From a virus, in the IMG/VR virus record IMGVR_UViG_3300021957_000014, positions 1-64,000 of that record: a stretch of DNA of 64,000 nt; one strand, given 5' to 3'. Below the pieces are notes generated by a model, which saw nothing but the letters and a program-made list of their open reading frames with translations, was not told where the DNA came from and did no database searches. A program made the translations under genes and the position numbers. Positions 1,834 to 57,079 of the stretch are shown here, piece by piece; positions within the stretch are counted from its first letter, which is position 1, and the number at the start of each line of letters is the position of its first letter.

Positions 1834-2667
1834 TTATGCATCTACTAAAATCTTTTTAAATTTATAGACGGTTGAATTTGTAGAAGCAGAAGTTACTCTA
1901 ATTCTTAAAGTTCCTATATTGATATCTACTCCAAATGTTGCAAGTTCTGAACTCCCTGTAAGGACTGTACCGTACTGAGACACACTTGCAGTTGTTCCAT
2001 TATGAACAATTGATAATTCTGTAAATTGATATACACCACTTGTTGCATCTGAAATAGATACTTCATACTTTGCACTTCTATATGCAGTAGTAGAGAATGT
2101 ATCCATACTTGTTTCACTTGTAGATGTTGTGGTAAGTGTACCACCATCTAATCCAGCTGCTGATTGAAATGTTAATGTACCACTACCATTTGTAGTAAGT
2201 ACTTGACCCGAAGTACCATCCGAGGTTGGATAATTGATACTTGCACCTGTTAAACTATTTGTTGCAGTCAATGTTGTTGCAACTAAGTCACCAACATGTA
2301 AGTCTGCTAATGCATAACCACTTCCACTTAAATTAACAGTGGATGTAGGTTCTGTTTCTAATCCATCAAATAGTTTCCATGTCGAATCTGTAGCATCTCT
2401 GAATAGACCTGTGTATTCACTTGCACCCCCTTCTCCACTTAAACCATCATTATAGTTACCATAGATTCCTATGTCTACTGTATCTGCAGTGGTGTTACCA
2501 CTTGCAAGTTCTATCAATGAATCTGTAACCGATTGAGTTGTGGAATCTATAACTGTGTTAGTTCCATTTACAGTTAGGTCACCAGTGACTACGAGATTTC
2601 CACCAATAGATGTATCTCCCGATGTTTGGATGCCTACGTCTGCAAAAAATTTGGATTGAGTTGCCAT
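1834..2667 (-). CDS. Fibre-like structural protein with shared C-terminal beta domain
   Basis: 277 aa. The middle contains GNLVVTGDLTVNGTNTVIDS, a motif common in marine T4-like fibre proteins and also present in the gene at 4023. The last 90 residues (DTFSTTAYRSAKYEVSI... to KFKKILVDA) are clearly paralogous to the C-termini of the genes at 2730 and 3157. Directly upstream of the ATG is TATAAATA-N5-ATG, so the late transcript is predicted to be leaderless. Most likely a virion fibre or whisker component; the partner is unknown. Confidence 0.75.
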   Translation of the reverse strand: MATQSKFFADVGIQTSGDTSIGGNLVVTGDLTVNGTNTVIDSTTQSVTDSLIELASGNTTADTVDIGIYGNYNDGLSGEGGASEYTGLFRDATDSTWKLFDGLETEPTSTVNLSGSGYALADLHVGDLVATTLTATNSLTGASINYPTSDGTSGQVLTTNGSGTLTFQSAAGLDGGTLTTTSTSETSMDTFSTTAYRSAKYEVSISDATSGVYQFTELSIVHNGTTASVSQYGTVLTGSSELATFGVDINIGTLRIRVTSASTNSTVYKFKKILVDA

Positions 2668-2672
2668 AGTAC

Positions 2673-2680
2673 TATTTATA
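2673..2680 (-). promoter_or_regulatory. Late promoter abutting the start codon
   Basis: A perfect TATAAATA is followed by GTACT and then the ATG at 2667. With the T4 late box at about -13 to -6, +1 falls on the A of ATG. It lies immediately downstream of the terminator of the preceding gene. Confidence 0.75.
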
Positions 2681-2682
2681 GC

Positions 2683-2714
2683 AAAAAAAAGGGGAACCGA
2701 AGTTCCCCTTAAAA
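2683..2714 (-). terminator. Rho-independent terminator with UUCG loop
   Basis: On the minus strand AAGGGGAAC-TTCG-GTTCCCCTT forms a 9-bp stem closed by a TTCG tetraloop and followed by a T run. It sits just after the stop of the 2730..3143 gene and just before the late promoter of the next gene. Confidence 0.85.
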
Positions 2715-6034: not shown

Positions 6035-6364
6035 TCACCTCGTTACACTTGGGGTTACGATGGCTTGTCCTTCTATTACTCTAGTAGTTGTTGAACCACT
6101 AGTTACAGTCATATCATATACATAACGACCTGGCTCCAATGCTCCGCTTTGTGCATCAGTTAATGATAATGTTACCTTACCATCGGATGCTGATACTGAT
6201 GTTGTAAATGTTGCACTTGCACTTGAGGAAGTATAAGTCTTTCTCATTTGTGCTGCTGCAGTATAACCTGTTAAGTTAAGAACATTTCCAGTTGCATCGG
6301 TTACATCTACAGTAATACTGAAGTCTGTATGTTGGTCGATGAATATGTTTGCAAGAATAGCCAT
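6035..6364 (-). CDS. Beta-sandwich virion protein (109 aa)
   Basis: Begins MAILANIFIDQHTDFSITVD, followed by a compact pattern (DVTDATGNVLNLTGYTAAAQ, LEPGRYVYDMTV, IEGQAIVTP) typical of the small Ig/BppU-like proteins beside fibre genes in many phages. The ATG follows a perfect late box with a 5-nt gap, so the mRNA should be leaderless. Probably an adaptor or decoration protein in the baseplate-fibre region. Confidence 0.65.
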   Translation of the reverse strand: MAILANIFIDQHTDFSITVDVTDATGNVLNLTGYTAAAQMRKTYTSSSASATFTTSVSASDGKVTLSLTDAQSGALEPGRYVYDMTVTSGSTTTRVIEGQAIVTPSVTR

Positions 6365-6369
6365 GTAAC

Positions 6370-6377
6370 TATTTATA
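6370..6377 (-). promoter_or_regulatory. Late promoter abutting the start codon
   Basis: TATAAATA-GTTAC-ATG on the minus strand has the same 5-nt spacing as the sites before 2667 and 26685, placing the predicted +1 on the A of the AUG. Confidence 0.75.
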
Positions 6378-18058: not shown

Positions 18059-19528
18059 TTACATTTCAATAATTAATTTAATATCTTCGATTTGGTCTGC
18101 AGCTCTTGAAACAGCACCACGGTTTTCGATGTACATGATGTTGCCTGAGTAAGCTTGAACCTCGGGGTGTGCAGCGTTAACTGAAGACACCGTACCAATG
18201 TTTGAACCACTCTTGTAAACTACGTCTGCTTGAGCAAAGTTTGCATAACCACCTTCACTGTTTGCTACAGGTATGTGAGATACAACTACTCCGTTTATAG
18301 AAACTATTCTAGAAACTGCTACTCCAACTCCGTCTGAAGATGCATCCATGATTAAATCATCGGGTGATAAACCACTTGTGCTTGATAAAGTCATTTGTGA
18401 ATATGCTGTCATAGAAGGGTCTGAACCAATAGTTGTTGTACCCTTTTTGAATGGGTCTTGTACTAATCCGATTCTTCTGAAGTCATTGTCTGTTGGGAAA
18501 TCTCCACCACCTTCACCAAACTCAAATCTAGAGTTGATGATAATGTAGTTTCCACCTAGTTCTTCTACTGGGTCTGCACCATGTCCAATGATTGGTGAAA
18601 GGATGACTTTAATTGCTGCCCCAGTTCCACCAGCTACTGCTGCTGCAATGTCTACACTTGCACGTCTGTAACCAGAGCCTGGTGTTGTAACTGTTACGTG
18701 TGTGATAGTACCACTGGATACATGTATTGAACATCTACCACCTGTACCATCTCCATCGATTACAACGTTTTCGTATGTACCATCTCCATCGGTATAACCA
18801 CTGCCTGCTGAAGTTACTACTGCATGATAGATTGCACCATCTACTGAGTCATTTTCTACATCCCATTGTGCTGTACTATCATTTGTTGCAACGGTTCCTA
18901 ATCCACCGTTCTCACCTGTTCCAAATATTTCGGTTTGAGCTCCAATTGTTTTAACTGGGATAAAGTCGTTAGTTACAAATTTGATTACGTCTGAAGCTGA
19001 GATTGAATACATGTATTTCCATTTGTATCCTCTACCTGTTCCCGCGTCTGCATCAGCAGTTTCAATAATTGCAGTTGAAGATGTACCACTAGGTGCTACA
19101 GTAGAGGCAACGACAGCACCGCCTGAACTTCTACCTGTTCTGATACATTTGTACACGTTGTAGTCTTCTGTCATCACATAAAATCTAGAATCGTAAACGT
19201 TTGATGCACTAGTTGCTGTTGAGTTGTTCCCAACTGCACCTACATCATGTTGATATTCGTCATAAGTTGTGTTTGCAGTCCAGTTATATCTAACTAAACC
19301 ATGAGTTACATCGCCAGTAGGCACTTTCTTTAGTGCAATCATGTCTGACCATGCGTCTAACTCTTCACCAACTGAATTAGTTGGGTCTGTAGGTACTGCA
19401 TCGTTTGGCCATGCAAATGACCTTCCTATGAATATATAAGTTGAAGAGGAAGTTTCTGCTGATGAGAAGTCCTCTTTGAATTGTTTCGCGTTATGTGTAC
19501 GAAACTTCTCTGTGATTATTGCTGCCAT
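18059..19528 (-). CDS. 8: Baseplate wedge protein, gp8-like
   Basis: 489 aa, starting MAAIITEKFRTHNAKQFKED, with YIFIGRSFAWPND and a later GRGYKWKYMYSIS motif. This is the pattern of the protein annotated as gp8 baseplate wedge in T4-like cyanophages. It lies directly downstream of the gp7-like gene, as 8 follows 7 in T4. A late box precedes the gene, with a leader of about 30 nt that includes a GGGAGAG ribosome-binding site. Length is larger than T4 gp8 (334 aa). Confidence 0.7.
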   Translation of the reverse strand: MAAIITEKFRTHNAKQFKEDFSSAETSSSTYIFIGRSFAWPNDAVPTDPTNSVGEELDAWSDMIALKKVPTGDVTHGLVRYNWTANTTYDEYQHDVGAVGNNSTATSASNVYDSRFYVMTEDYNVYKCIRTGRSSGGAVVASTVAPSGTSSTAIIETADADAGTGRGYKWKYMYSISASDVIKFVTNDFIPVKTIGAQTEIFGTGENGGLGTVATNDSTAQWDVENDSVDGAIYHAVVTSAGSGYTDGDGTYENVVIDGDGTGGRCSIHVSSGTITHVTVTTPGSGYRRASVDIAAAVAGGTGAAIKVILSPIIGHGADPVEELGGNYIIINSRFEFGEGGGDFPTDNDFRRIGLVQDPFKKGTTTIGSDPSMTAYSQMTLSSTSGLSPDDLIMDASSDGVGVAVSRIVSINGVVVSHIPVANSEGGYANFAQADVVYKSGSNIGTVSSVNAAHPEVQAYSGNIMYIENRGAVSRAADQIEDIKLIIEM

Positions 19529-19558: not shown

Positions 19559-19566
19559 TATTTATA
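19559..19566 (-). promoter_or_regulatory. Late promoter with leader
   Basis: A perfect TATAAATA on the minus strand lies 30 nt upstream of the ATG at 19528. Unlike other late boxes here, it leaves room for a Shine-Dalgarno site. Confidence 0.7.
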
Positions 19567-26265: not shown

Positions 26266-26685
26266 TTATCGTGCCCTTGTTACTGTGAATGTCAAATCGT
26301 TATTTGGAACACCCTCGTTAATGTTGTAGAATACTGTTACATCCATATTGTTGTCATCCACATCATCAAATTTTATAGTTACATTTGAGACTCTTGGTTC
26401 GAACTTCTCTATAGTATCTGCTAAGACTCTTTTCATTCTACGTACCTTTCTATCGGTATCTAATTCGAATAACATGTTTCTGATAGACCCACCAAAGTTT
26501 GGTTTAAATGGTCTTTCATATTTGTTGGTTAGAACAATGTTTCTTACTGCTCTACGTATTGCATCCGTATCCGTTTTAATGGTTACATCACCTGTGACTG
26601 GATGAGCTCTCATAGTGATATCCATATCAGAGTGTATGTTTTTGTTTGCAACGGTCTTTCCGTTATTTACTAGTTGGTCTGACAT
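26266..26685 (-). CDS. 25: Baseplate wedge protein gp25
   Basis: 139 aa (T4 gp25 is 132). It has the gp25/IraD-fold pattern, DTDAIRRAVRNIVLTNKYER followed by PFKPNFGGSIRNMLFE, the best-conserved signature of contractile-tail wedge proteins. It lies directly upstream of gp6. Its ATG follows TATAAATA with 5 nt between, so no Shine-Dalgarno site can be on the late transcript. Confidence 0.95.
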   Translation of the reverse strand: MSDQLVNNGKTVANKNIHSDMDITMRAHPVTGDVTIKTDTDAIRRAVRNIVLTNKYERPFKPNFGGSIRNMLFELDTDRKVRRMKRVLADTIEKFEPRVSNVTIKFDDVDDNNMDVTVFYNINEGVPNNDLTFTVTRAR

Positions 26686-26690
26686 ATATC

Positions 26691-26698
26691 TATTTATA
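26691..26698 (-). promoter_or_regulatory. Late promoter abutting gp25 start codon
   Basis: TATAAATA-GATAT-ATG on the minus strand. The predicted +1 is the A of the gp25 AUG. Confidence 0.75.
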
Positions 26699-30212: not shown

Positions 30213-31349
30213 TTAACCCCCACCACCATTGGCACTTTTATCTCTATTTGATGCTGCAACGGTTTCTTGTCTTCTTTCAGCCAATGAGGTCATCCCACCA
30301 CCTAAGTCTTGTTTCTTTGCTGACTTGGATATTGTCTGATAGTTTTCCTGTGTAAGTATTTTGATTTCTGTGAAACTTAGTGACATTTTTGTTGATATTG
30401 GATACCCATCTTCAAATAGTTTGTTTGAATGCGAGACGTTACATGATGTACATACCATGGGTAAGAAGTCATCAAATTTATCTGCAATTGGGCCCTCCCA
30501 TTCTAATTTAAACATGTTGGGATAGTTGAAATAATTTTCAATTGCAGTATCACCTTCTGCTTCTCCATATGTGTCGGGTAACATTGCAGTCTTGAATCCC
30601 CATACGATATCTTTCACTGCAGTTGCTTCGTCACTATTTCTAGGGAAAAACTCATATTCAAAAGAAAAATCTCTGAAACCCACTCCTTCGAACATCTGTT
30701 CTTCCATAGGGTTGGCTGCTCTTCCAGCAAGGAAGTTGTTTGCACCGCCAGTGAGCATAGAACCTAGTTTGTTCATACCATCTTGGACTGCTCCCTCTAA
30801 TGCAGTTCCAGTTGCTTGTAATGTTGAACCATCCATTTTACCATTGAATGAATCTTTTATCTCAAGTCCTCGTCTAATACCAGCACCAACACCTTCATTC
30901 TTGTAGGTTGCCTTCACATCCCCTTCACTTATTTCATCGGGAACATATAGTGCAATCTCAACTGATTCTGAGGACAATAAATTTTTGTTATTAGCACCAT
31001 CTGCGTTTCTAGCAGTTCTAGGTAAAGTGGTGAATACAAGATAATTCTGTAACTCTTCCCCAATAGGGTACTGCAGTTCTCTAACTCTTGTCTCGGGTGA
31101 TTTTTTCCCTTGTTGTTTTGCTTGTTTCGATGCTTTATTCTTCTCTAAAGAAGACCGTCTTTTGTCTAGTGTTGCTTGTGCTTCTTCTGCTTGTTGGGCA
31201 AGCTTGTCTGCAACATCGGATAATGACCCCGATGCTAGATTTTTTAAGTCGTATCCCTTTCCAGTAAGTTTTGCTTGAATACCCTTAAGAGATTTCACTG
31301 CACTTTTAGCTTGACTTACTTTATTGAGTATTTTGTTGATATTCGGCAT
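30213..31349 (-). CDS. 48: Tail tube baseplate protein gp48-like
   Basis: 378 aa (T4 gp48 is 364). After an N-terminal helical, Lys/Gln-rich segment, the body has RELQYPIGEELQNYLVFTTL, FEYEFFPRNSDEATAVKDIV, FNYPNMFKLEWEGP and a terminal ISTKMSLSFTEIKILTQENY, the pattern of gp48/gp54 tube-initiating proteins. First gene of the leftward baseplate operon, divergent from gp4. Confidence 0.85.
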   Translation of the reverse strand: MPNINKILNKVSQAKSAVKSLKGIQAKLTGKGYDLKNLASGSLSDVADKLAQQAEEAQATLDKRRSSLEKNKASKQAKQQGKKSPETRVRELQYPIGEELQNYLVFTTLPRTARNADGANNKNLLSSESVEIALYVPDEISEGDVKATYKNEGVGAGIRRGLEIKDSFNGKMDGSTLQATGTALEGAVQDGMNKLGSMLTGGANNFLAGRAANPMEEQMFEGVGFRDFSFEYEFFPRNSDEATAVKDIVWGFKTAMLPDTYGEAEGDTAIENYFNYPNMFKLEWEGPIADKFDDFLPMVCTSCNVSHSNKLFEDGYPISTKMSLSFTEIKILTQENYQTISKSAKKQDLGGGMTSLAERRQETVAASNRDKSANGGGG

Positions 31350-31359
31350 TCAGAATCCC

Positions 31360-31367
31360 TATAAATA
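31360..31367 (+). promoter_or_regulatory. Late promoter for rightward gp4 operon
   Basis: A perfect TATAAATA on the plus strand lies 29 nt upstream of the gp4 ATG. It is half of a divergent pair with the box at 31392. Confidence 0.65.
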
Positions 31368-31391
31368 GTTCTTGTTAATTATGGTTACTGT

Positions 31392-31399
31392 TATTTATG
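31392..31399 (-). promoter_or_regulatory. Late promoter for leftward gp48 operon
   Basis: CATAAATA on the minus strand (one mismatch) lies 42 nt upstream of the gp48 ATG and overlaps the first codon of gp4. It pairs with the plus-strand box at 31360 in the divergent interval. Confidence 0.55.
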
Positions 31400-33832: not shown

Positions 33833-33840
33833 CATAAATA
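33833..33840 (+). promoter_or_regulatory. Late promoter abutting start codon
   Basis: CATAAATA-GTTCT-ATG on the plus strand, with one mismatch to the late box and the same 5-nt spacing as the minus-strand cases. It restarts late transcription after the sugar cassette. Confidence 0.65.
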
Positions 33841-33845
33841 GTTCT

Positions 33846-34418
33846 ATGGTATCTAAAGTATTATCAACTGTAGCAAAAATGTTACCCGAAGAAATAGAAT
33901 CGGGAACCGAAGATAGTCTGCAATGGTTTAGACAAAACGTCCGTGATTTAAAAATCAAACCAATAAAGATTATGAAAGGATTAGACACAGTCACTAATAC
34001 TGGACTGAGACAAGGTGGAGTATACATGTTCCATTATGATGCAAAGTGGAAAGACACATTGCCGTATTGGGATAAGTATCCAATTGTCGTACCATTAGAA
34101 TTATACAACAATGGATTTTTGGGAATCAATATCCATTACATCTCACCTACAATGAGAGTACCTTTGTTAAGTAAGTTATTTGAATTTACTATGGAAGGTG
34201 AGGATGATGATAGAATGCTTGTAGACTATGACTTGACCCAAATAGAAAGTGGTCTAAGAAATGCCGGGCCGTGTATCAAAAGATATTTAACATCTCATAT
34301 CGGTGCAAGAATTGTTAAGGTACCAAGAGAACAATGGGAAACATTAATGATGATGCCAACAGCACAATTTAATGTAAACGCAAACACTGTATATGCAGAC
34401 AGTAGAAGGAAAATTTAA
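33846..34418 (+). CDS. Conserved T4-like protein, possible DNA end protector
   Basis: 190 aa. The central pattern (GGVYMFHYDAKWKDTLPYWD followed by GFLGINIHYISPTMRVPL) is widespread in marine T4-like phages, where I recall it annotated as a structural or gp2-like DNA end-protecting protein. That label is uncertain, since T4 gp2 is longer (274 aa). Position between head completion and tail tube genes suits a head-neck function. Confidence 0.6.
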   Translation: MVSKVLSTVAKMLPEEIESGTEDSLQWFRQNVRDLKIKPIKIMKGLDTVTNTGLRQGGVYMFHYDAKWKDTLPYWDKYPIVVPLELYNNGFLGINIHYISPTMRVPLLSKLFEFTMEGEDDDRMLVDYDLTQIESGLRNAGPCIKRYLTSHIGARIVKVPREQWETLMMMPTAQFNVNANTVYADSRRKI

Positions 34419-39148: not shown

Positions 39149-39394
39149 TCAACCTAACGGCCCTCTGAATCCACGTCTACCCATTGATGCTCTCTTAGCA
39201 TCTAACTTCTTACGTCTTTTTAGTTGTTGGTTCTTTTCGTTTTTGATAGTGTTAGGTTTGATATGATACTTCCTATCCCTACACTCTTGAACTATATTTG
39301 CCCTTTCACATTCCTTTTTGAATCTGCGAAGTAGTTGGTCGAACCCTTCTACGTTCCGATTCTTTGGATTTATTTTTGGTGTTACACTTGGCAT
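39149..39394 (-). CDS. rpsU: Ribosomal protein bS21 homologue
   Basis: 81 aa. Residues 15-65 match bS21: FDQLLRRFKKECERANIVQE, then CRDRKYHIKPNTIKNEKNQQ, then LKRRKKLDAKRA. Compare the cellular pattern FDxALRRFKRxxExAGIL...KP..RK. It has a 10-residue N-terminal and a Gly/Arg-rich C-terminal extension. bS21 sits at the 30S platform next to the anti-Shine-Dalgarno helix, so a phage copy could change which mRNAs are initiated. A 198-nt structured leader precedes it. Confidence 0.88.
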   Translation of the reverse strand: MPSVTPKINPKNRNVEGFDQLLRRFKKECERANIVQECRDRKYHIKPNTIKNEKNQQLKRRKKLDAKRASMGRRGFRGPLG

Positions 39395-47021: not shown

Positions 47022-47267
47022 TTATAAACTCTTTTGTATGTCGTCTAGTTCTTTAAGTTTCTTATTGATGATGTCTACTCTATTGGGCCAATAGATATAG
47101 TCCTTGTCTGAATCCTTTGCAAGATTCTCAAGTAGGGGTCTCACAAAATTATCAAGTTTGTTGATTACATCCGTTGCAGTTGTAGTCTTCTCAATAATCT
47201 TTGTATCAATGGCTGCAAGTTCATCTGCATCCATCGCTGTAAATCCGAAATCGTTGTATTCTGTCAT
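47022..47267 (-). CDS. Small helical acidic protein (81 aa)
   Basis: MTEYNDFGFTAMDADELAAI followed by long helices (KIIEKTTTATDVINKLDNFV). Its ATG follows a perfect late box by 5 nt, so it should be expressed late from a leaderless message although it sits among early-type genes. A virion or assembly role is possible; marine T4-like phages have similar small proteins of unknown function. Confidence 0.65.
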   Translation of the reverse strand: MTEYNDFGFTAMDADELAAIDTKIIEKTTTATDVINKLDNFVRPLLENLAKDSDKDYIYWPNRVDIINKKLKELDDIQKSL

Positions 47268-47272
47268 AGTAT

Positions 47273-47280
47273 TATTTATA
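47273..47280 (-). promoter_or_regulatory. Late promoter abutting start codon
   Basis: TATAAATA-ATACT-ATG on the minus strand. It overlaps the stop codon of the upstream SDR gene (TAA within the box) and predicts a leaderless transcript from 47267. Confidence 0.7.
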
Positions 47281-52886: not shown

Positions 52887-54269
52887 TTAACTATCATCCC
52901 TTTCATCACGTTTGTTTGTAATCATGAACTTACGTGCTGGGTTTATCATTAAGTTTGCACGTTGCATCAAGTCACGGTTCGCAAGAAACGGTATTGCACC
53001 TCTAGTATCTAAACTAACTTCTTGTTCGTATATAGTGTTTAGGAAATTTAACTCAAGTTCTACGACTGGTCTGTCTTCAGCTGGTTTCAATAAAGTAACC
53101 ATTCTCTTTAATGGTTTCTTATACTTAACACCCTCTGTTGTCCATGTAACTATCTTACCCTTGACCTTTAAATCTTCTGCATGAAGTGAACAAGCTGAAA
53201 CTGAATTACCTGTATCTAACTTCACTGTCATCTCTTGACCTTCAATCTCTATGGTTTCTAATACACCACACTCTGTTGGTGACTTCTTCCATATGTCTCG
53301 GTCTTTGTAAATCTTAAGAACCATCTTAACAATGTCCTCACCGATAACACTAGAGATTCCTTCAGTGCCTGGCGAATGATTTACTTCCAATAGGTATGGT
53401 GGTTCGGTCTTTCTGTTTTTGCTAGGAATAAAGTCGACACCACACCATTGTCCGTTGACGGCTTTGCTAGCTCTTAGACAAATATCTTTTTCCATCTCTG
53501 TCAATGTAACTGATTGTGCATCTGCACCTTGGGATACATTACTTCTGAAATCATCTGTAATTTTGTTTCGTCTCATTGCACCAACGATTTCTCTGTTGAC
53601 AATGACTACACGTACATCGTAATCTGATTCGATATACTCTTGTAATAGAATATCACAGTAAGGGTCAATCTTATAAATCAAGCTGACCTGTGATTGTAAT
53701 GAACGTTCTGTTTCGATTAATAGAACACCCACACCTTTAGAACCCTGTAATGTTTTAAGTATCATCGGGAAGTTATTATCTAATGCTTCGTGAGCTCTAT
53801 CTACAGTCTCGGGTTCATCGTTTGGAATCAATACGGTACGTGGTTGGTTTAGACCTATCTCTTGCAGTCTCAGATACGTTCTAAACTTGTCTGAACAAAC
53901 TTCGATACATTCCCTAGGGTTACACGTTGCAATGCCGTAGCGTTCAATCTGAGAGATTAAATCGAGGTAGGAATCTTTAGTGTTTACTGCACCACGAATC
54001 ATAACTAATGTGTCTGCATCAATCTCGAATCCTTTCTCATCGTCTGCATTGTGAATAGTAATCTCACCACTATCCTCATCACGTTCTAAGTATGCACCAT
54101 TGATACGCACGTTGTAAACATCCATGCCCATCTTCTCTGCAACACTAACTATCTTACCACTGGTAGATTTCTTTGATTGTTTCTTAGGACGTTCTGCAAG
54201 AACGACAAGGCGATAGGGGTCGGACTTCTTAATGTCTTCTTCGACTATTAATTCTTGAAATGATTTCAT
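52887..54269 (-). CDS. rimK: RimK-like ATP-grasp ligase fused to RimB-like protease domain
   Basis: 460 aa. Residues 1-320 are ATP-grasp: FPMILKTLQGSKGVGVLLIE (phosphate-binding Gly loop), LLQEYIESDYDVRVVIVNRE, GAMRRNKITDDFRSNVSQGA and YLLEVNHSPG (metal site). Residues 335-455 match the ATP-dependent zinc protease/RimB domain: MTVKLDTGNSVSACSLHAED (DTGN aspartate) and a REDLM-like PFLANRDLMQRANLMINPAR. RimK adds glutamates to ribosomal protein bS6, and RimB trims them. A single fused phage protein is unusual. Confidence 0.88.
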   Translation of the reverse strand: MKSFQELIVEEDIKKSDPYRLVVLAERPKKQSKKSTSGKIVSVAEKMGMDVYNVRINGAYLERDEDSGEITIHNADDEKGFEIDADTLVMIRGAVNTKDSYLDLISQIERYGIATCNPRECIEVCSDKFRTYLRLQEIGLNQPRTVLIPNDEPETVDRAHEALDNNFPMILKTLQGSKGVGVLLIETERSLQSQVSLIYKIDPYCDILLQEYIESDYDVRVVIVNREIVGAMRRNKITDDFRSNVSQGADAQSVTLTEMEKDICLRASKAVNGQWCGVDFIPSKNRKTEPPYLLEVNHSPGTEGISSVIGEDIVKMVLKIYKDRDIWKKSPTECGVLETIEIEGQEMTVKLDTGNSVSACSLHAEDLKVKGKIVTWTTEGVKYKKPLKRMVTLLKPAEDRPVVELELNFLNTIYEQEVSLDTRGAIPFLANRDLMQRANLMINPARKFMITNKRDERDDS

Positions 54270-54646: not shown

Positions 54647-54947
54647 TAAATTTTATACTCACTCCACAACCACAACTGGCTTCTTCATTTGGATTCTGAA
54701 ACGTAAATGTTTCATTCAATCCTTGTTTCTCATAATCTAGTGTCATTCCATTTAAAAAAGGTTGACTCATTGTATCTATTAAAAATTTAAAGTTACCGTA
54801 ATCTAATTCTAAATCACCGTCTCTGAATTCATCTTCTACAAAAACATATTCATAACCACTGCAACCACCACCAGTAACACCCATTCTAACTGAGTCTACT
54901 TTCTTCTCTATAAGCTTTGCAATTGCAATGTCTGTGACTTCTATCAT
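54621..54947 (-). CDS. Fe-S cluster assembly protein, IscA/HesB type
   Basis: 108 aa. HesB/A-type carrier pattern: the first conserved Cys in GGGCSGYEYVFV and the second pair in EEASCGCGVSIKF, with the usual spacing. Marine T4-like phages often carry this gene. It may deliver clusters to phage radical SAM or other Fe-S enzymes; the radical SAM gene is in the same region. ATG follows TATAAATA by 6 nt. Confidence 0.92.
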   Translation of the reverse strand: MIEVTDIAIAKLIEKKVDSVRMGVTGGGCSGYEYVFVEDEFRDGDLELDYGNFKFLIDTMSQPFLNGMTLDYEKQGLNETFTFQNPNEEASCGCGVSIKFNEDIISKS

Positions 54948-54953
54948 AAGAAG

Positions 54954-54961
54954 TATTTATA
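54954..54961 (-). promoter_or_regulatory. Late promoter abutting start codon
   Basis: TATAAATA-CTTCTT-ATG on the minus strand (6-nt gap), just inside the downstream end of the carbamoyltransferase C-part gene. Predicts a leaderless or 1-nt-leader message for hesB. Confidence 0.65.
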
Positions 54962-56889: not shown

Positions 56890-57063
56890 CTACTTTTCTT
56901 TTAATCGTTCGTAGAAGGTTATTATTTGCTGTGGGTCGACAATATTGTCGTCCATGAGCGTTTGAAGTAGTTCTGCATGTCCATGTTTGACACCACTACG
57001 GTGTACGAAATAGACTAGTGCTAGGATAAATCCTAAATGAATCAATATTAATTCTATACTCAT
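56890..57063 (-). CDS. Small TM protein (57 aa)
   Basis: ATG at 57063 with a GGAG site. MSIELILIHLGFILALVYFV is one TM segment; the remaining 37 residues are soluble (HRSGVKHGHAELLQTLMDDN). Probably cytoplasmic-side anchored. Unknown. Confidence 0.65.
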   Translation of the reverse strand: MSIELILIHLGFILALVYFVHRSGVKHGHAELLQTLMDDNIVDPQQIITFYERLKEK

Positions 57064-57079
57064 GGTTTTATTTATCTCC

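Follow-up and report, generated by a model that had tools for sequence, protein, structure and literature searches.

Across an entire lineage of marine T4-like phages, many late promoters appear, from their sequences, to have been moved onto the start codon of the gene that they serve. At these sites, a T4-type late box is followed by exactly five nucleotides and an ATG (hereafter N5). The best explanation, to which we assign a probability of about 0.8, is that N5 sites are gp55-type late promoters at which the A of the AUG would be the first transcribed base, so that the late mRNAs would be leaderless. The sliding clamp would tether a late RNA polymerase made up of the host core enzyme and phage gp55. 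This polymerase would open the TATAAATA box at -13 to -6 and initiate six bases downstream, and the resulting 5'-terminal AUG would be read by 70S ribosomes without Shine-Dalgarno (SD) contact. A second late set, including the major capsid, tail sheath and baseplate wedge genes, would use the same box 15-47 nt upstream, with a leader and usually an SD site. The 5' ends, the gp55 dependence and the 70S initiation are what we infer from these genomes.

Late boxes at start codons

The window analysed comprises positions 1-64000 of an 86,212-base IMG/VR record, which is partial, and its source is a T4-superfamily phage. No close cultured relative was identified when phage records were searched at the nucleotide level. 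A preliminary description had listed six late boxes at a short, constant distance from a start codon, and all six were found with the coordinates and spacings claimed (Table 1). Copies of TATAAATA stand at N5 before 2667, 6364, 26685 and 47267, CATAAATA stands at N5 before 33846, and TATAAATA stands six nucleotides (N6) before 54947. Beyond these six, a weak GATAAATA site was observed at N5 before 57063 (-), and a good CATAAATA site at N5 before 84765 (-), in the same record but outside the window. The site at 57063 is doubtful because AAGGAG lies just 5' of the box. The interpretation of the boxes as fused to the AUG was supported for the N5 sites and is less certain for the N6 site of the HesB/IscA-like gene, where the spacing is 7 in G003; if functional, this box would leave a leader of 0-1 nt. 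The sites at 54947 and 57063 are both weak.

Table 1. Late boxes and associated features in the window
Feature	Position	Strand	Gene or remark
Late box TATAAATA, spacer GTACT, ATG	2665..2680	-	277-aa gene
Intrinsic-terminator-like hairpin AAGGGGAACTTCGGTTCCCCTT and T run	2689..2710	-	Ends just upstream of the 2667 box
Late box TATAAATA, spacer GTTAC, ATG	6362..6377	-	L-shaped-tail-fibre-assembly-like gene (phrog_3304)
Leadered late box, 30 nt before ATG (19528), SD GGGAG in leader	19559..19566	-	Baseplate wedge gene (phrog_438)
Late box TATAAATA (26698-26691), spacer GATAT, ATG	26683..26698	-	gp25 baseplate wedge gene, 26685-26266
Two facing late boxes, TATAAATA (+) and CATAAATA (-)	31360..31398	both	Divergent genes, both leadered
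Late box CATAAATA, spacer GTTCT, ATG	33833..33848	+	DNA end protector, gp2-like (phrog_429)
Ribosomal protein bS21 (PF01165)	39149..39394	-	Candidate trans-acting partner (putative role)
Late box TATAAATA, spacer ATACT, ATG	47265..47280	-	81-aa gene; box overlaps stop of upstream ORF
Late box TATAAATA, six-base spacer CTTCTT, ATG	54945..54961	-	HesB/IscA-like gene, 54947-54621 (PF01521)
GATAAATA, spacer AAACC, ATG	57061..57076	-	57-aa ORF

The genes with an N5 box here include gp25 (product matching PF04965, E=3e-14), the DNA end protector, the tail-fibre-assembly-like gene and others without assigned function. Overall, the promoters precede genes of late type (gp25, gp2, portal, tail fibre assembly, baseplate), lateness being judged by homology. 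Several N5 genes start 8-36 nt after an upstream stop codon, and readthrough mRNAs with translational coupling may therefore also serve them. For the 277-aa gene, the terminator-like hairpin directly before the box would limit readthrough from upstream.

Spacing statistics

The word TATAAATA was counted 9 times in the window against 5.4 expected, which is not a significant enrichment; the signal is in the spacing and not in the abundance of the box. Of the 15 ATAAATA boxes in the record that stand before an ORF of 50 aa or longer, 7 were at N5, whereas the best of 900 control combinations (20 permuted motifs at 45 spacings) reached 3, with a mean of 0.12. Across seven related genomes, 42 ATAAATA-N5-ATG sites were counted, compared with a mean of 0.91 and a maximum of 12 for the permuted controls, and this bears out the earlier claim that the constant spacing is not due to chance. 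HTVC008M, Mosig and Melnitz together had 18 N5 sites (control maximum 6).

A peak in the distances from box to ATG in relatives had been proposed as a check, and one sharp N5 peak was obtained rather than a flat distribution. When the clade was pooled and deduplicated, 61 distinct sites had a spacing of 5, none had 0-4, few had 6-14, and a broad class was observed at 15-47. In an IMG/VR-wide scan with the pattern GTATAAATAG-N(0-25)-ATGG, on contigs not selected for this clade, at least 16 distinct N5 sites were recorded, with at most 4 at any other spacing among the matches listed. The genome-wide scans used mechanical ORF starts, and the contigs are fragments. Variant boxes (CTAAATA, TATAAGTA) were not counted because an exact ATAAATA was required. 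Because the genes behind N5 sites belong to 32 unrelated protein families, the pattern was not spread by the copying of a single gene.

Start site, start codons and Shine-Dalgarno motifs

The T4 late box occupies -13 to -6 (PMC1524935), and an N5 spacing would therefore put +1 on the A of the AUG. Leadered boxes of the same genomes had T at the fifth base after the box in 53% of cases and A or G at the sixth in 83%; a purine was present at the sixth base in 76-95% of boxes in T4, KVP40, S-PM2, Syn9 and AG-345-L05. For the N5 boxes, the fifth base was T in 75%, and the sixth is the A of the ATG. The initiator signature of the leadered boxes thus independently points to the sixth base, in agreement with the prediction that +1 falls on or next to the A of the AUG. 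The base at -13 was T in 66% of boxes, C in 23% and G in 11%, the other seven bases being fixed by the search. Judged on every testable sequence feature, the boxes are of the T4 late type. Homologues of gp55 were present in G001, G002, G003, G005, G007, HTVC008M and Mosig, and none was found on the 86-kb partial record itself.

The start codons of the N5 class were 61 ATG, 1 GTG and no TTG. As had been expected of mRNAs beginning at the AUG, SD sites were nearly absent, a four-base SD motif (SD4) being found at 4 of 61 N5 genes compared with 63 of 113 leadered genes. All seven HTVC008M N5 ATGs within 5-52 kb are annotated starts, and sequence conservation in the portal and tail-fibre-assembly proteins begins at the first methionine; together, these observations indicate that the N5 start codons are right. 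The HTVC008M gp2 gene has a divergent neighbour 26 nt away. Weaker 5' mRNA structure in the predicted leaderless genes was considered and was not seen, as the predicted minimum free energy of the first 40 nt was equal in the two classes (-2.34 for N5 and -2.30 for leadered genes).

Distribution and inheritance among relatives

The clade genomes and records compared are labelled G000, G001, G002, G003, G004, G005, G007 and G012. Among 80 IMG/VR contigs encoding a gp25 relative, the ATAAATA-N5-ATG arrangement was kept in nearly all of those with the start codon in view, despite differing upstream sequence. For 11 clearly different gp25 flanks, the box was 98% identical and codons 2-15 were 54% identical, compared with 26-31% for the sequence upstream, and the N5 spacing was exact. 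Among the loci compared, boxes were 98-100% identical, with flanks at 26-56%. No conserved -35 element was found at gp25 in unrelated contigs, the flanks from -60 to -15 being only 26-31% identical.

Among cultured or single-cell phages, the fraction of boxes at N5 was 9/18 in HTVC008M, 6/32 in Mosig and 3/26 in Melnitz (a weak signal), and 0/31 in T4, 0/22 in KVP40, 0/21 in Syn9, 0/16 in AG-345-L05 and 1/28 in S-PM2. At IMG/VR portal-gene loci, the N5 count was 29 of 192 for Mosig-like contigs and 1 of 241 for cyanophage-like contigs. Gene by gene, gp25 is at N5 in all clade members and HTVC008M, with a spacing of 8 in Mosig; the DNA end protector is at N5 in G000, G001, G004, HTVC008M and Mosig, with a spacing of 7 in G002; the tail-fibre-assembly gene is at N5 in 7 of 7 clade members, and the portal gene in 6 of 6, the portal box lying 25, 31 and 28 nt away in Mosig, Syn9 and T4, respectively. 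The 277-aa gene at 2667 is at N5 in G007, G004 and G002 and leadered in G012, and the relatives of the 81-aa gene at 47267 in G001 and G002 have no late box. These spacings indicate that N5 status is inherited but switchable.

Leadered late genes in the same genomes

Leaders are retained by the major capsid, tail sheath and baseplate wedge genes, most of them with an SD site. The gene at 19528 had been cited as a late gene that keeps its leader, and both the distant box and the GGGAG were confirmed. The accompanying suggestion that two translation modes coexist agrees with the bimodal box-to-ATG distances (N5, and leaders of 15-47 nt). The portal, gp25 and gp2 genes fall into the predicted leaderless class and the capsid and sheath genes into the leadered one, a division that may run along low-copy versus high-copy products.

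Several other features of these regions were recorded. The facing boxes at 31360-31398 serve a head closure gene at 31397 (+) and a tail tube cap gene at 31349 (-), forming a compact bidirectional late promoter that is kept in G004. The leader of a 271-aa late gene (G001, G004, G007, G012) contains a short inverted repeat, e.g. GTAGTATAACAGGAATACTACT, with an SD-like AGGA in its loop, located between the late box and the ATG. Variant late boxes, TATAAGTA and CCTACTAAATA, were observed upstream of the portal gene (loci L485-L503 and L511-L527), often forming an inverted repeat together with the SD region (AGTAGGAG); CCTACTAAATA resembles the CTAAATA box of Aeh1. These variants suggest that gp55 specificity may drift among pelagiphage-like contigs.

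Alternative explanations

The mild over-representation of TATAAATA in the window might suggest that the pattern arose by chance or from the composition of an AT-rich genome, but this is already refuted, as permuted motifs never came near the N5 count and the boxes of T4 (0/31) and of the cyanophage-like contigs (1/241) do not share the spacing. It is very improbable that TATAAATA at -13 to -6 acts instead as an A/U-rich ribosome-binding or enhancer element in mRNAs that begin upstream, the box being no promoter here. Its position is that of an SD site, the sampled SAR11 genome has few SD sites, and several N5 genes follow closely behind an upstream gene; however, the same motif and initiator occur 15-47 nt before SD-led late genes, as a promoter would, orthologues such as the portal gene switch between N5 (six clade members) and a leader (Mosig, Syn9, T4), and a terminator-like hairpin stands 5' of the 2667 box. 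Moreover, an RNA element would need neither the match to the T4 late consensus nor the exact spacing. Somewhat less remote, although still improbable, are real late promoters initiating slightly upstream, giving mRNAs with leaders of 1-5 nt that lack an SD site yet do not begin at the AUG. Bacterial promoters commonly show a wobble of 1-2 nt in the start site, and minor N6-N8 classes exist, but the initiator signature is centred on the sixth base and the spacing stays at 5 instead of ranging over 5-9. The sequence alone would be compatible with a leader of 1-3 nt.

A different question is why promoter and start codon were fused. It is possible, at rather less than even odds, that the cause was mainly genome compaction, with the late promoters of streamlined phages squeezed into intergenic gaps of about 13 nt and leaderless translation tolerated rather than selected; this addresses the 'why' and is compatible with AUG-fused late promoters. 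The boxes at 47267, 54947, 84765 and 33846 overlap or abut upstream stop codons, and mean intergenic spacers of approximately 21-25 bp are given for pelagimyophage group A in the available text of PMC7029224. Against compaction, other late genes of the same genomes keep leaders of 15-47 nt, and the choice of N5 genes is largely conserved.

Sigma-70-type promoters and SD use

A second class of fused promoters was observed outside the late genes. In the clade, 18 deduplicated sites of the form TATAAT-N6-ATG, the equivalent geometry for sigma-70, were counted (null mean 2.3, maximum 9), including those of the gp55 gene of G001 and of G000 at 65103, 69454 and 76887 (-), and a similar peak was obtained when a -35-like TTG was required. 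The peak was not seen in T4 or KVP40. As sigma-70-type promoters also seem to be AUG-fused, the arrangement would reflect a general translation mode of the lineage and not a late-only one, and leaderless mRNAs probably extend beyond the late genes. For SAR11, the idea of a leaderless signal throughout the host was also considered and was set aside, since a TAnnnT-N6-ATG peak near 16S loci was not clearly upheld over 400 kb of one genome. In this SAR11 contig (L414-L433, 400 kb), an SD motif preceded approximately 12% of mechanical gene starts (control 6%). The pelagiphages HTVC008M and Mosig had 53% SD use, above that of this sampled relative of their host.

Phage-encoded bS21

A gene for ribosomal protein bS21 was present in G000, G001, G002, G004, HTVC008M, Mosig and Melnitz. 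It was absent from T4, S-PM2, Syn9, P-SSM2, KVP40 and AG-345-L05, and was not found in the partial clade records G003, G007 and G012. Its presence follows that of the N5 class across the fuller T4-like genomes compared. Eight IMG/VR contigs with bS21 contained 38 N5 sites in 778 kb compared with 3 in 648 kb for eight contigs without it, as tallied among the matches listed and without an ORF filter. The bS21 genes showed no N5 enrichment in their immediate surroundings (3 of 38 sites), which means that bS21 and the N5 sites are physically unlinked. The association is a correlation within related phages, and shared ancestry alone may account for it. A RimK-like ATP-grasp protein (PF08443, E=9.5e-35) whose C-terminal part has a weak protease-like match is also encoded at 52887-54269 (-). 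In E. coli, RimK modifies ribosomal protein S6.

The bS21 of HTVC008M enters E. coli 70S ribosomes, and selection of phage transcripts by bS21 has been suggested (PMC9723584). Leaderless mRNAs and phage bS21 might form one programme, in which bS21 would replace the host protein beside the anti-SD sequence on the 30S platform and so re-tune ribosomes to favour SD-less phage mRNAs with a 5' AUG, capsid-scale proteins still being SD-led. We regard this as unlikely; bS21 could equally serve SD leaders, which are used in about half of the genes of these phages.

Relation to known systems and significance

In T4, whose late transcription is a textbook system, the late genes carry SD-bearing leaders. 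The gp55/gp33/gp45 late promoters of T4, KVP40, S-PM2 and Syn9 have in common with those described here the 8-bp box with a variable -13 position, the initiator at the sixth base and the late structural genes. The difference is in the spacing, as about one quarter to one half of boxes here are at N5, compared with none in T4, KVP40, Syn9 and AG-345-L05 and one in S-PM2. A transcription start-site map of Syn9 has reportedly been published. Among other phages, lambda cI is a leaderless phage mRNA. Leaderless phage mRNAs were first found in lambda (PMC3160421), where a single mRNA is known to begin at the AUG, whereas a genome-wide late class covering 32 protein families is predicted here. Cellular TA-led leaderless genes, with a -10 box at approximately -12 from the start codon and no SD site (PMC3160421), have the same geometry; those genes use host sigma factors, and here a phage late-sigma box is found together with a sigma-70 set. 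The phiKZ late promoters (TATG, with +1 at the G; PMC4666361) likewise place a short motif next to the transcription start in a large phage, but the polymerase differs and is not gp55-type, and they were set aside as a precedent because +1 is the G and there is no start-codon fusion.

No earlier report of AUG-fused or leaderless late mRNAs in T4-like phages was found in the open literature searched. The available text of the Melnitz paper lists 15 late promoters and does not discuss their spacing (PMC9004378), and that of PMC7029224 describes late-promoter prediction as 'unsuccessful in PMP genomes'. Wholesale AUG fusion of late promoters is not shown by T4 or by the cyanophages examined, and in pelagimyophages it may help to explain this failed prediction. 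For cultured HTVC008M or Mosig on P. ubique HTCC1062, the fused boxes give 5'-end predictions at single-nucleotide resolution. The predicted leaderless class would also provide a concrete mRNA feature for testing why such phages carry their own bS21.
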